DNA of 64,000 nt from contig NC_014376.1 in NCBI RefSeq assembly GCF_000144625.1, forward strand, positions 3,930,501 through 3,994,500, written 5' to 3'. A program made the position numbers and the translations under genes. The notes beneath the pieces are model-generated. The model saw only the letters and a program-made list of their open reading frames with translations. It was not told the origin of the DNA and ran no database searches. Source of the DNA: [Clostridium] saccharolyticum WM1. GTDB lineage: Bacteria > Bacillota > Clostridia > Lachnospirales > Lachnospiraceae. Below, piece after piece: positions 5,051-55,945 of the stretch (position 1 is its first letter; each line of letters begins with the position of its first letter).

Positions 5051-5055
5051 AGTGC

Positions 5056-5141
5056 CACAAGAGGGAGCTCGTAGGCGGGCTGAGAGGAAGTCATCAACTT
5101 CGACCTTTATAACCTGATTTGGGTAATGCCAACGTAGGGAT
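5056..5141 (+). promoter_or_regulatory. TPP riboswitch (THI element)
   Basis: Conserved aptamer cores are visible: GGGAGCTC at about 5072, GGGCTGAGAGGAA (5078-5090), then ACCTGATTTGGGTAATGCC (5112-5130) and the closing AACGTAGGGA (5131-5140). These are the hallmark CUGAGA and ACCUGAUCUGGAUAAUGCCAGCGUAGGGA elements of thiamine-pyrophosphate riboswitches. It precedes an intrinsic terminator and thiC. TPP binding is therefore expected to favour termination. Confidence 0.95.
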
Positions 5142-5166
5142 TTATATGGGATGATTGTATATTTCC

Positions 5167-47345: not shown

Positions 47346-48671
47346 TTAAGGGATCAGCCGGTGAATATCTCTTGGAAACAAGGTAGAAAGCCTGACATTA
47401 TCCTGCTCCAGCAGCTTTCCTGTAAACCGTTCCAGGCCTAAACCTAACCCGCCATGAGGAGGCATCCCATATTTATGCATCATGAGATAGGTATCAAACA
47501 GCTCCGCATTCATTCCCCTGTATTCCATTTTAGCGATCTGTTCTTTATATTTGTGGATCCTCTGACCGCCAGTGGTTATTTCCAGTCCACGGAACAAAAG
47601 GTCGAAGCTTAAGGTCTCTTCCTGATTTTCTCCGCTGTCTTTGGCGTAAAATGGTCTTTTCCTGCTTGGATAATGGGTCACGAATACAAATTCGCTCCCT
47701 GTTTTCTGCTTGACCAGCTCATAAAGCAGCCTTTCTTCTTCCGGCTCAAAATCATCAAAATCCTTTACCGGCCTCCGATAATCTAAGGAAATCATTTCTT
47801 TTGCTTCCTTAAATTTTATTGCCGGAATCTCATCAATCACCGGAAGCTTGGCATTTAACAGCCTGATTTCGTTTTCATATTGTTCCTTCAAATATACCAT
47901 CACATGCCGGAGCATCATGGTTTCCATCTGCATAATATCTTCAAAACTGTCAATATACCCCATTTCAAAATCTACGCTGGTATATTCATTTAAGTGCCTG
48001 GAAGTATCATGTTTTTCTGCCCGGAAAACAGGTGCGATCTCAAACACTCTTTCATAAACCCCTACCATCATCTGTTTATAAAACTGAGGGCTTTGAGCCA
48101 AATAAGCCTCTTTGCCAAAATAGTTAAGACAAAATATATTAGCTCCCCCTTCGGCACCGGCATAAACGATTTTAGGCGTATGGACCTCCGTAAATCGTTC
48201 CTGTTTTAAAAACTCACGTATTCCACAGGTGATCCCTTCCTGTAATTTAAAAATGGCCCGCTCTCTTTCATTGCGCAGCGTCAACGGCCTGAAATTAAGC
48301 AGGGTTTCCATAGAAGCATCAACCCGCTTGTTATTGATTACGACCGGACTTGGCTCTTCCGGCCATGATAGAGTTTCTATCTTGATCATCTGAAGATCAT
48401 AGCCTGTTTTTGATCTTTCTTCTGCCTTAACATGGGCGGTTACAATGACACAGCTTTCTTCTGTTATCTCACTAAGGGAAAACCCGGAAAATTCCGCTGA
48501 ATATATACACTGGACAACATTTCTTTTTGTTCTTAATAGTACAAAAGCAAAATCGCTCATTGTTCTGATTTTATAAATACTTCCATGGATCTGCACATTT
48601 TCTCCAATATGGTTTCCCAACTCTTCTGCTTCAACCGTTTTCTTTTCCATGGTCCCTGTAATATTCTTCAT
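47346..48671 (-). CDS. aspS: aspartate--tRNA(Asp/Asn) ligase, archaeal type
   Basis: Class II synthetase of 441 residues: N-terminal OB fold (about 15-115, HGSIYKIRTMSDFAFVLLRT) and a catalytic core with motif 2 FRAEKHDTSRHLNEYTSVD (about 216-236) and motif 3 GLGLGLERF (about 415). It lacks the GAD insertion of bacterial AspRS, so it is the AspS2 form, usually non-discriminating and paired with GatCAB for Asn-tRNA. A 400-base leader with an Asn/Asp-rich leader peptide and terminator precedes it. Confidence 0.9.
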   Translation of the reverse strand: MKNITGTMEKKTVEAEELGNHIGENVQIHGSIYKIRTMSDFAFVLLRTKRNVVQCIYSAEFSGFSLSEITEESCVIVTAHVKAEERSKTGYDLQMIKIETLSWPEEPSPVVINNKRVDASMETLLNFRPLTLRNERERAIFKLQEGITCGIREFLKQERFTEVHTPKIVYAGAEGGANIFCLNYFGKEAYLAQSPQFYKQMMVGVYERVFEIAPVFRAEKHDTSRHLNEYTSVDFEMGYIDSFEDIMQMETMMLRHVMVYLKEQYENEIRLLNAKLPVIDEIPAIKFKEAKEMISLDYRRPVKDFDDFEPEEERLLYELVKQKTGSEFVFVTHYPSRKRPFYAKDSGENQEETLSFDLLFRGLEITTGGQRIHKYKEQIAKMEYRGMNAELFDTYLMMHKYGMPPHGGLGLGLERFTGKLLEQDNVRLSTLFPRDIHRLIP

Positions 48672-48691
48672 TATTTGCCTCCTAATGATTT

Positions 48692-48717
48692 AAGCGGATA
48701 TGCTTGTATATCCGCTT
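48692..48717 (-). other. hairpin just before the aspS ribosome site
   Basis: AAGCGGATAT (48692-48701) pairs with ATATCCGCTT (48708-48717), ending nine bases before AGGAGG. Two further stems (48733-48757 and around 48780-48815) precede it in the leader. Confidence 0.6.
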
Positions 48718-48863
48718 GATTCCCAACCTCAAGGTTGAAATACGTTTTCTTTCAACCTCTTTTCTCCTGGATGATAGTATCAATTTCCTTTCCTGAGGAA
48801 TCTATCCATGAGGACATCATCAATATGTCCCATACGATCACAACCTTTCTCATTCCCGTATGG

Positions 48864-48909
48864 GTAAAAAAATAGAACCACACGAGTAAATTATATTTAC
48901 CAATGTGGT
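48864..48909 (-). terminator. attenuator terminator in the aspS leader
   Basis: On the minus strand a 15-bp stem with one mismatch (48895-48909 with 48877-48891) is followed by TCTATTTTTTT. It lies about 80 bases after the leader-peptide stop and about 190 bases before aspS, so most transcripts could stop here. A TGTGTGG upstream (about 48925-48932) can pair with its CCACA arm as an antiterminator. Confidence 0.8.
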
Positions 48910-48947
48910 CCGTCAGAAAAATCTATCCACACAGGCACAACGCATCT

Positions 48948-48985
48948 AGCGCTTGCACCTATGATTCATCACAGATACAAGCGCT
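48948..48985 (-). other. 18-bp hairpin directly after the leader peptide
   Basis: AGCGCTTG and CAAGCGCT form the base and TATCTGTGAT/ATCATAGGTG the upper stem (with G-U pairs), loop GA. It begins one base beyond the leader stop, where a stalled ribosome would prevent its folding. Confidence 0.75.
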
Positions 48986-48986
48986 G

Positions 48987-49034
48987 CTAATCGTCGTCCC
49001 TATTCAGCTTTTTAAGCTGTTGATACTGATTCAT
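48987..49034 (-). CDS. aspS leader peptide rich in Asn and Asp
   Basis: A 15-codon ORF encoding MNQYQQLKKLNRDDD, with GGAGG (49043-49047) eight bases before its ATG and a strong promoter just upstream. The last five codons are Asn-Arg-Asp-Asp-Asp, i.e. the amino acids of the downstream AspRS/non-discriminating synthetase. A hairpin starts one base after the stop and a terminator lies further on. The arrangement is that of trp- or his-type ribosome-mediated attenuation. Too short for homology support; the case is architectural. Confidence 0.7.
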   Translation of the reverse strand: MNQYQQLKKLNRDDD

Positions 49035-49063
49035 GGCGGCTGCCTCCATTTATAATTTGATTC

Positions 49064-49092
49064 AGATTATCATAAAGATCGGATTTTGTCAA
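49064..49092 (-). promoter_or_regulatory. promoter of the aspS leader transcript
   Basis: Minus strand: TTGACA (49087-49092), 17-base spacer, TAATCT (49064-49069); transcript start about 49057, just before the leader peptide ribosome site. Confidence 0.8.
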
Positions 49093-49101
49093 ATATTTTG
49101 C

Positions 49102-49284
49102 TTAAAATTTTAAAGGGCTTTTTTCTGAAATAAGGATCAAATAAACCGACCGATTATCGGCTCCGGTAAGATATGCTTGATAATATCCGGCGGAATCTGA
49201 TCTGAAAAGATAACTCATTACATTCAGTAATGTGGTGGGACCGCAGTCGTATTCCGTGACCTGATAGTTTAATGGATTTTTCAT
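49102..49284 (-). pseudogene. frameshifted N-terminal fragment of a C39-like peptidase
   Basis: The start MKNPLNYQVTEYDCGPTTLL is the conserved active-site region of C39-like (papain-fold) peptidases, with its Cys. After SYLF the frame goes wrong. Reading another frame from about 49205 gives QIPPDIIKHIL, which is how this family continues. The rest of the protein is missing. So a one-frame indel at about 49200-49206 and a 3' deletion have destroyed the gene; the aspS promoter now lies at its end. Confidence 0.65.
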
Positions 49285-49301
49285 GTTGGGTCTGGTCAAA
49301 A

Positions 49302-50009
49302 TTATCCTTTAATAAATCTCATCATCTTTTTCTGGTCAGCCTCTTGGTTCAGTGCATCAATTTGCTTCGCTATTTTTTCAATGGCTTCAGCCTTTTCTAT
49401 CTTTTCAGATTCTCTGAATATTTCCTCGCCCCAATACCTTTCAGTGGTGCAGAACACCGTGGAAGACCAGCCGTATTCTTCGCCCTTGCTGGAAATCTTT
49501 TGCTGCCTTCCGCACATGGTCAGATACAGTTTCATTTGAAGTTCCGTCAAAGCCCGGTCAAATTGGCTTTTCTCCTCTTTTCCGAATCCGGCAAGCTGTT
49601 TGATCTCATGCAGAGGCAGTACTTCATGTCCGGCAACAACATTGTATATTCGCTTGGCATAATTGCTGATCAAACCTTCTTCATAGGCTTCTTCAAAAAG
49701 CGTATTGTCACGCCGGGCTGCGAGAAAATAAGGAATCCATTGTTTCGTAATGTAGCCGCTTTTCTTGAAAAAAAATTTCCCATAAGCGATATCATCACGC
49801 TCGTCCAACACCCGCATTCGCCATTCCCATGGATCGGTTTCAGGATCACCGGTATGCCAGCAAACCGGGGTGTCATAGGGTGGCTGTTCCTCCCAATTCC
49901 AGGTAATTATAGAAAAAACGCCCTCACTGTTTCCGCCTCCCATTGAAAATCCCGCTTCCAGCAATGCAGATACAAAATCGTTATAATTTTTTATTATCAT
50001 TTGATTCAA
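49302..50009 (-). CDS. AlkZ-like protein
   Basis: A 235-residue protein with Trp-rich conserved blocks (ITWNWEEQPPYDTPVCWHTG, DPWEWRMRVLDERDDIAYGK) and a C-terminal winged-helix-like region (LPLHEIKQLAGFGKEEKSQF, LQMKLYLTMCGRQQK). It resembles clostridial proteins labelled AlkZ-related, which share the winged-helix core of the AlkZ DNA glycosylase family. The activity is unproven. A TTG start at 50009 is chosen because AGGAGG lies eight bases upstream. The next gene upstream is a WYL regulator, a probable partner. Confidence 0.5.
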   Translation of the reverse strand: MNQMIIKNYNDFVSALLEAGFSMGGGNSEGVFSIITWNWEEQPPYDTPVCWHTGDPETDPWEWRMRVLDERDDIAYGKFFFKKSGYITKQWIPYFLAARRDNTLFEEAYEEGLISNYAKRIYNVVAGHEVLPLHEIKQLAGFGKEEKSQFDRALTELQMKLYLTMCGRQQKISSKGEEYGWSSTVFCTTERYWGEEIFRESEKIEKAEAIEKIAKQIDALNQEADQKKMMRFIKG

Positions 50010-55473: not shown

Positions 55474-55945
55474 CTGGTTGCCTCCAATCCCATAATCATC
55501 TATGGATAAAAGCTGACAGAAAATAATACAACTGCTTTATTCTGACAGCTTTTCTTAAAATATGGTTTCTCTGTACTTTTTCTTGGCACCCCAGAGATCG
55601 GGGATTTCTCACAAGCGGCAGTGTGCTTCACTGCTCCATTGGAATTTAACCATCCCGCCTTCTTTATGGCCGGACCGCGAATTACGGAAGTATCATTGTC
55701 CCTGACAGGCTTTTACACCACCGTCGGTTGCAATCCGACATTTGCTGCTGCGATTCCGCTTCGCCCCTGTTGGGCATCATGGCGTGCAGTCGAAGGCTCG
55801 TTCTGTCAGTAATGTACTTGGAGAATGAGTATTCAATTTTCATAGTTCATCAGCCTTGTTGCCTTAGCTGTAAAGTAAGTATAAAAGAATGCGGTTTTAC
55901 ATAACACGCCGGAAACTGCGACTTTGCCCACCTAATTTTGCGAGT
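55474..55945. other. unexplained intergenic region before mazF
   Basis: No supported gene. An inverted repeat AAAAGCTGACAGAA (55508-55521) with TTCTGACAGCTTTT (55540-55553, one mismatch) lies just upstream of mazF. The middle part (about 55570-55815) is G+C-richer and has many short self-complementary blocks (for example CCCCAGAGATCGGGG). Open frames here look like chance translations. A structured RNA or an old gene relic is possible. Confidence 0.5.

Follow-up and report, generated by a model that had tools for sequence, protein, structure and literature searches.

A putative Asp-codon leader-peptide attenuator upstream of a clostridial aspS gene and its possible codon-swapped relatives

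The window, which is the whole stretch of 64,000 nucleotides that we analyzed, comes from a genome of 4,662,871 bases in a single contig. On its (-) strand lies aspS (47346..48671), which encodes a non-discriminating archaeal-type aspartyl-tRNA synthetase (AspRS), an aspartate--tRNA(Asn) ligase by family model: the product matches the NCBIfam models PRK05159 (560 bits) and aspS_nondisc (375.6 bits), both over the cut-off. The same genome encodes a second archaeal-type non-discriminating AspRS (55% identity) and AsnRS. By similarity, it probably also encodes a bacterial-type AspRS (29-34%, as two matches in one long frame, L004 and L006).

An earlier sequence-only reading of this DNA had proposed a leader-peptide attenuator upstream of aspS; its parts all lie on the (-) strand. 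The candidate promoter (49066..49092) reads as TTGACA at 49092-49087, a spacer of 15 nt, and GATAAT at 49071-49066. It had been called strong. Both hexamers are present, and TTGACA is without variation in 15 aligned leaders, but the strength is only plausible: a consensus promoter scan that required a spacer of 16-18 nt did not list this promoter. The ribosome-binding site GGAGG (49047-49043) and the 15-codon leader peptide ORF, MNQYQQLKKLNRDDD (49034-48987 with its stop; codons at 49034-48990 and TAG at 48989-48987), are both present as claimed. The sensor codons Asn Arg Asp Asp Asp make up segment 0 (48990..49004), which could pair with segment C. Hairpin 1 (48985-48948) starts one base past the stop of the ORF, as had been described, but it has 17 pairs, not 18. 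Its 5' arm is segment A (48970..48985) and its 3' arm is segment B (48948..48963), and covariation indicates both A:B and the alternative B:C. Segment C (48927..48941) has 0, B, or D as putative partners, as judged from covariation, permutation, and ribosome-blocked folds. The intrinsic terminator (48866..48911) was absent from the list of a simple terminator scan and was recovered by folding. The T7 of the earlier description is there, as a U tract at 48872-48866, but the stem (48911-48875) has 16 pairs with one mismatch rather than 15 pairs; it contains segments D (48908-48895) and E (48891-48878). The candidate antiterminator would pair 48941-48927 with 48908-48895, also as first read. The fold of the 389-nt leader has a z-score of -7.7, and none of 100 shuffles was as stable. 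Just upstream of the leader promoter is a short ORF with NYQVTEYDCGPTT (49102-49299, (-) strand), which looks like the truncated remnant of a longer protein.

The genes for clostridial tRNA synthetases are often controlled by T-boxes. We rejected a T-box for this leader: there is no T-box core on the leader strand and no Rfam match, and on reinspection the window's only core match is near 49234 on the other (+) strand. When we searched 48500-49400 against Rfam up to E 10, the only match was to an IRES model (E 3.9). At the gathering threshold, the leader did not match any known Rfam amino-acid leader (His, Thr, Trp, Leu, or Phe). At that threshold none of 20 sources matched, although ten of them contain a T-box core; since the gathering threshold misses even the T-boxes of the sister group of AspRS (see below), absence at that level proves little. 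Elsewhere in the window, only two elements scored above gathering: a TPP riboswitch (5051-5158, (+) strand) and a pemK RNA (55636-55699, (-) strand).

The leader is conserved well beyond this genome. A search with its DNA matched 22 of 61 genomes. Among the same-genus genomes, 16 of 24 match over at least 200 nt (from a table that was read by eye); two others match over a short part only (G011 and G017), one matches the repeat only (G002), and five have no match. The leader blocks of G001 and Clostridium sp. Marseille-P2415 are identical. A protein search with AspRS against 397 genomes of the family, with a threshold of E 1e-100, gave matches in 126. All of the top 18 (L001 and L037-L053; 59-100% identity), which were picked by protein score alone and so independently of the leader, have the leader. 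Because the elements of the window's leader are conserved in other genera, they are more than chance. Two loci were not counted: L026, where the terminator and the second element adjoin an unrelated fragment, and L027 (in G017), where the start of the leader is followed only by short remnants of aspS and the gene was apparently lost. L028 matched in promoter bases only.

The Asp codons are conserved along with the RNA. Across 91 Asp-class leaders, the sensor reads DDD in 88, DND in two, and DED in one, so the short Asp-codon ORF of the sequence-only reading held up. The residue two before DDD is Asn in 81, His in five, Gln in two, Arg in two, and Lys in one. The Arg of the sensor stretch may become Trp with GG kept (L008, L010, and L011). 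In 84 of 90 leaders, 14 nt separate the first Asp codon from the first paired base of hairpin 1, and in the other six the spacing is 13 nt, while the stop codon may lie as much as 5 nt ahead of the start of hairpin 1 or 19 nt past it (n = 126). Because the spacing from sensor to hairpin is fixed and the stop is variable, the RNA is tuned to the sensor codons and not to the end of the ORF.

To examine the pairings, we used an alignment of 25 Asp-class blocks and an alignment of 23 Asp, Asn, and His blocks, which is without L107 and without the Pro class (found later). A:B and B:C are mutually exclusive, and both show compensatory changes. Two-sided changes occur in 6 of the 15 A:B pairs and 5 of the 11 B:C pairs in the Asp-class alignment, and in 10 of 15 and 7 of 11, respectively, across all classes. 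In the 23 blocks, 94.2% of the cells of A:B and 96.0% of the cells of B:C are paired; slid controls reach at most 49.9% and 54.5%. For 0:C, 91% of the cells are paired within the Asp class, with zero two-sided changes. Permuted partners never equaled the native ones for 0:C (0/20000 across classes and 0/5000 within classes) or for C:D (0/20000), but these permutations used 86 cluster representatives that are still related, so the significance of the shuffles and permutations is overstated. The hairpin and the terminator that had been described are both there, but the switch would comprise five segments with a relay hairpin, and its scaffold is not limited to aspS.

In the switch that we propose, segment C would decide the outcome. 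While the leader carries no ribosome, 0 would pair with C, A:B would stand, and the D:E terminator would form. A ribosome that completes the ORF would cover the foot of A and release B, which would capture C, so D:E would form again. A ribosome that is held up within the Asp codons, most effectively at the first of them, would stop just before hairpin 1, mask 0, and leave A:B intact; C could then pair with D while E has yet to be synthesized, and RNA polymerase would read through into aspS. We infer three of these elements, namely stalling by uncharged tRNA, kinetic antitermination, and induction of aspS.

Folding of the window's leader with blocked ribosomes is largely consistent with this three-state logic, but not cleanly. 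The block was the size of a ribosome and reached from 21 nt behind the first base of the A-site codon to 12 nt ahead of it. For a transcript that ends at C, the expected pairs without a ribosome are 9.9 for 0:C and 15.9 for A:B; with Asp13 in the A site, A:B has 15.9; and with the stop codon there, B:C has 11.9. For a transcript that ends at D, C:D has 10.5 expected pairs with Asp13 in the A site, and a block at Asn11 or Asp13 (footprint +12) gives A:B plus C:D. Other states are less clear. With the ribosome at the stop codon and the transcript extended to D, the prediction is mixed for a footprint of +12 (7.5 expected pairs for B:C and 5.4 for C:D), and for a footprint of +11, C:D prevails (9.6 versus 2.8), which is the wrong direction. 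With a block at the third Asp codon and a transcript that ends at C, B:C (8.5) is already above A:B (3.7). At equilibrium, the full-length transcript favors D:E in every ribosome state, so read-through must be kinetic.

We also looked for a switch signature in the other leaders, that is, C less paired with the ribosome at the first sensor codon than either without a ribosome or at the stop, by a margin of 0.2 and for a transcript that ends at C. This signature appears in 58 of 97 Asp/Asn leaders, 1 of 24 His leaders, and 1 of 4 Pro leaders. In most His leaders, B:C is long and C is paired in every state; either the order of synthesis decides or the on-state of His leaders differs. As most His and Pro leaders failed, we no longer take equilibrium folding to prove the switch in general.

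Overall, by comparative evidence the attenuator is real, and it most likely works as first proposed, with Asp as its main signal. We consider it very probable that the window's leader senses charged tRNA(Asp) and acts by ribosome-mediated attenuation of transcription.

The sister group of AspRS appears to use a different sensor. Our sample of this group comprised 13 loci (L002 and L054-L065, one of the sampled loci being in the window's genome) and two more genomes, G094 and G162. All 15 that we read have a T-box core upstream and no Asp-codon attenuator. The proteins from G094 and G162 have 59% and 58% identity over about 375 residues; with this partial identity they are not among the 18 best matches, and they too have the T-box core without an Asp-codon leader. 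Three sister-group leaders that were compared to Rfam up to E 1 all matched T-box at 59.5-65.1 bits, where the gathering score is 93. In a protein tree, 27 leader-bearing and 12 T-box-bearing AspRS are split by one branch with support 100/100, in a tree whose rows were chosen by hand, whose bootstrap is not quite settled, and many of whose inner branches are without resolution. Two related AspRS genes in one genome thus have two unrelated sensors of what is presumably the same signal. Because the type of sensor tracks the protein tree, it becomes possible to ask what a ribosome-based sensor offers over direct binding of tRNA.

Both sensors can also stand in series. At five distinct loci, a T-box core lies between an attenuator that has Asn/Asp codons and a bacterial-type aspS (L096, L097, L098, L166, and L177; L097 is the same place as L114). 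These are of the Ruminiclostridium type, plus one Eubacterium MAG. Four tandem loci were compared to Rfam and all four matched T-box with E 4e-17 or better; their scores of 84-90 bits do not reach the gathering score of 93.

We searched for further relatives with covariance models and with a pattern. R1, which was built on the Asp class, matched 29 of 397 genomes of the family and 14 of 391 genomes of the class at E 0.01 or better, chance matches included. A scan for the B-C pattern, with one genome per species and no ORF required, found 72 loci, and all of them were also recovered by a second model, R2 (E 0.001). R2 contains a few bases of the codon stretch, which gives it a slight bias towards GAT. 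At E 0.01 it matched 17 of 295 genomes of the order, at E 1e-4 it matched 16 of 391 genomes of the class, and at E 0.001 it matched 14 of the 22 genomes from a further family, again with some chance matches. On reading, we discarded the weak model matches L089, L090, L091, L094, L100, L101, L103, L105, L189-L198, L201, L205, L206, and L233 as chance matches. Opposite-strand matches over true leaders were discarded as echoes of a near-palindromic hairpin. After merging 12 duplicates, we tabulated 128 distinct attenuators, the weakest of which is L107 (27.8 bits). Nearly all are in named Clostridia, either Lachnospiraceae or others; L111 is titled only "bacterium." A script detected a terminator-like hairpin in 116 of the 128.

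The codons of these leaders agree with the genes that follow. For the 113 leaders with both a codon class and a synthetase or his gene assigned, the class corresponds to the gene in every case, with no mismatches: Asp leaders before aspS (83), mixed Asn/Asp leaders before aspS (7), His leaders before hisS (12), hisZ (6), or hisG (2), which makes 20, and Pro leaders before proS (3). True mixtures of Asn and Asp are found at few loci, mostly with a bacterial-type aspS. The remaining 15 comprise three leaders before other genes, two unclassed aspS loci, and ten without a recognized gene, given a reference set of aspS, asnS, hisS, hisZ, hisG, proS, and the proteins of those three other genes, so that any further gene would score as none. 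Of those ten, seven have less than 400 nt of sequence downstream, while at least 1500 nt are available for L142, L215, and L216. The two aspS loci lack a usable ORF call: L153 reads LNRDDDM and L156 is cut by the end of a contig. The reference genes were confirmed by NCBIfam. Some gene matches are short despite 2600 nt of available sequence (73 residues of hisS at L120 and 79 residues of aspS at L165), the match at L161 is fragmented, and those at L144, L157, and L119 lie at the edge of the available DNA.

The scaffold was also seen in other settings: with LNGNNN before a methylthioadenosine/SAH nucleosidase (L086), with FFNNHFR before a sodium-dependent transporter (L107), and with NPHHPHSL where an amino-acid ABC binding protein is 598 nt away (L199). 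Scaffolds with Pro codons (NCPSPS, SCPSPS, or SCPGPS) occur at L225, L230, L231, and L232; three of these precede proS, and the record of the other stops before any gene.

The sequence of about 200 nt between the T7 of the terminator and aspS holds two more features. The second element (48804..48849, (-) strand) has an extended Shine-Dalgarno sequence, GAAAGGTTGTGAT, a start codon, a small hairpin, and Asp codons. ORF2, MGHIDDVLMDRFLRKGN, begins inside it and has 17 codons (48833-48780 including the stop, (-) strand). The 46-nt element scores at least 32/46 in 67 of 80 nd_b aspS leaders. In bacterial-type aspS leaders, 2 of 12 score 31 and 32; L098 scores 23, and its block looks like the second element with a one-base shift. 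Scores in his and proS leaders are at most 22/46, so the element was seen with aspS leaders only. Its small hairpin covaries, and the six pairs are kept in 343 of 360 cells, against 197 for slid versions. Among 60 distinct elements, an Asp codon (GAC or GAT) stands at codon 5 of ORF2 in 59 and at codon 10 in 58; codon 4 varies freely, and in two elements ATT takes the place of the normal start. Our guess is that the element is either a strong ribosome site that stabilizes the mRNA or a second sensor of Asp. The other feature is a dispersed repeat of about 86 bp with two hairpins (48672..48756, (-) strand). It was inserted between the original Shine-Dalgarno sequence and aspS, carries its own Shine-Dalgarno sequence at its end, and supplies the ribosome-binding site of aspS. 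The repeat is not in the other 14 of 15 aligned leaders. It has 22 matches in the genome (for instance G000:C1:1411716-1412052), some of which are the same place on the other strand. Many of the copies that we examined lie directly before the start codons of unrelated genes, and some do not; at two places they are in tandem.

Several other explanations need to be weighed against a sensor of charged tRNA(Asp). The leader might be an RNA-only switch, such as a metabolite riboswitch or a protein-bound leader (for example, autoregulation by AspRS), with the ORF as a by-product of the conserved RNA. The primary sequence of hairpin 1 and segment C is indeed strongly conserved across classes, the sensor bases also pair with C, and the change from Arg to Trp keeps GG. 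However, the Asp, His, or Pro codons that stand in frame fit the downstream gene, the leader has no Rfam match, and both synonymous sensor codons are used (for Asp, 167 GAC and 100 GAT; for His, 64 CAT and 29 CAC). Furthermore, an ORF with an ATG start reaches the sensor in 125 of the 126 leaders (of 128) that were measured, and a lenient test found a Shine-Dalgarno 4-mer in 101, a 3-mer in 24, and none in one, although these counts are partly due to choice because the script that picked the ORFs prefers ATG starts with a Shine-Dalgarno sequence. We consider an RNA-only switch to be very improbable. It is hardly credible that the leader senses its acidic nascent peptide, or general translation stress (ribosomes slowed by drugs, or low Mg2+), instead of charged tRNA. 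Acidic runs near the start of a nascent chain can destabilize ribosomes. The ermC leader is said to sense a global slowdown of translation (PMC2965389). But the N-terminal part of the leader peptides varies freely, and His, Pro, and Asn codons are also found on this scaffold, with the match to the gene at 113/113 of those assigned.

Which amino acid is sensed is a narrower question, and the earlier reading had named Asp and Asn together. Sensing of Asn, or of both equally, might be expected as the enzyme is non-discriminating: it matches PRK05159, an aspartate--tRNA(Asn) ligase, an Asn codon stands two residues before DDD in 81 of 91 leaders, and some Ruminiclostridium leaders have LNNGYNI or LNHGDNI. 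Yet Asn is replaced in 10 of the 91, so it is non-essential, while DDD is retained in 88; and the first Asp codon is nearer to hairpin 1 than the Asn codon by six bases. The replaceable Asn codon weakens the case for Asn as the main signal, which we regard as unlikely. Since Asn is common but replaceable, Asp is the conserved signal. A more serious alternative concerns the wider family: the Asp, His, and Pro attenuators might have arisen independently, with convergent hairpins, and there would be no family with swappable codons. The His leaders fold differently under the ribosome block, R1 matches the His leaders (before hisG and hisS) only weakly (E 0.003-0.009), and repeated emergence of short leader frames has been suggested (PMC2965389). 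On the other side, R1 matches the His leaders at all, and it matches Asn-type leaders at E about 1e-10; the core sequence of hairpin 1 and C is common to the classes; and the frames are alike (KLNRDDDR, KLHHHHRK, and KLNNGYNI). The last sensor codon is also at a similar distance from hairpin 1: about 8-9 nt for Asp, 9-10 nt for Pro, and mostly 9 nt for His (9 of 24, with four at -2 that reflect a failure of the hairpin finder or of the choice of sensor). Independent origins are therefore a doubtful but real possibility. We lean, with modest confidence, towards one inherited, codon-programmable family of attenuators in Clostridia, in which one RNA core would have spread among aspS, hisS, hisZ-hisG, and proS while its sensor codons (Asp, Asn/Asp, His, or Pro) were exchanged. 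Its relay hairpin would translate the position of the ribosome into the choice of terminator, and the attenuator sometimes stands in series with a T-box.

If such a family exists, it would be a peptide-coding counterpart of the T-box. The match of codon to gene over Asp, Asn, His, and Pro offers a natural swap series for testing whether codons can be exchanged freely, and the covariance model can annotate leaders that match no Rfam family here.

Our literature searches did not find a leader-peptide attenuator of aspS or proS, which is not proof of absence as most subscription journals were outside their reach. The closest known systems differ from the window's leader in various ways. The T-box (RF00230) of aspS and asnS shares the gene family, the presumed signal (tRNA charging), and the output, but the leader has no T-box core, and the T-box belongs to the sister group of AspRS. 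In C. acetobutylicum, one of three aspS genes is reported to have a T-box (PMC2494555). Ribosome-mediated attenuators of the trp/his type have been described for leuS and trpS2 in Streptomyces (PMC1262725) and for cysS in alpha-proteobacteria (PMC8632094). They are alike in having a short ORF with regulatory codons, an antiterminator, an intrinsic terminator, and a synthetase as the target; compared by description and not by sequence, they are unlike this leader, which has aspS and Asp, is found in Clostridia, and has a relay hairpin in which B captures C. The leucine-rich attenuator of ilv in S. aureus, which is reported to have experimental support (PMC5794164), is also a leader-peptide attenuator of a Firmicute, but it controls a biosynthetic operon and has Leu codons. 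Further parallels are for His: leader attenuators of hisS*/hisZ in bacilli (PMC2965389) and of his operons in the B. cereus group, in Peptostreptococcaceae with Lutispora, and in Erysipelotrichales (PMC9413887). These likewise have a run of His codons before a terminator and antiterminator, a likeness of description and not of RNA, and some of our His members may be the same as the printed ones. The mechanism here is very probably ribosome-mediated attenuation, not a T-box, and Firmicutes His versions of it are already in print; of wider interest is a common scaffold with swapped codons.
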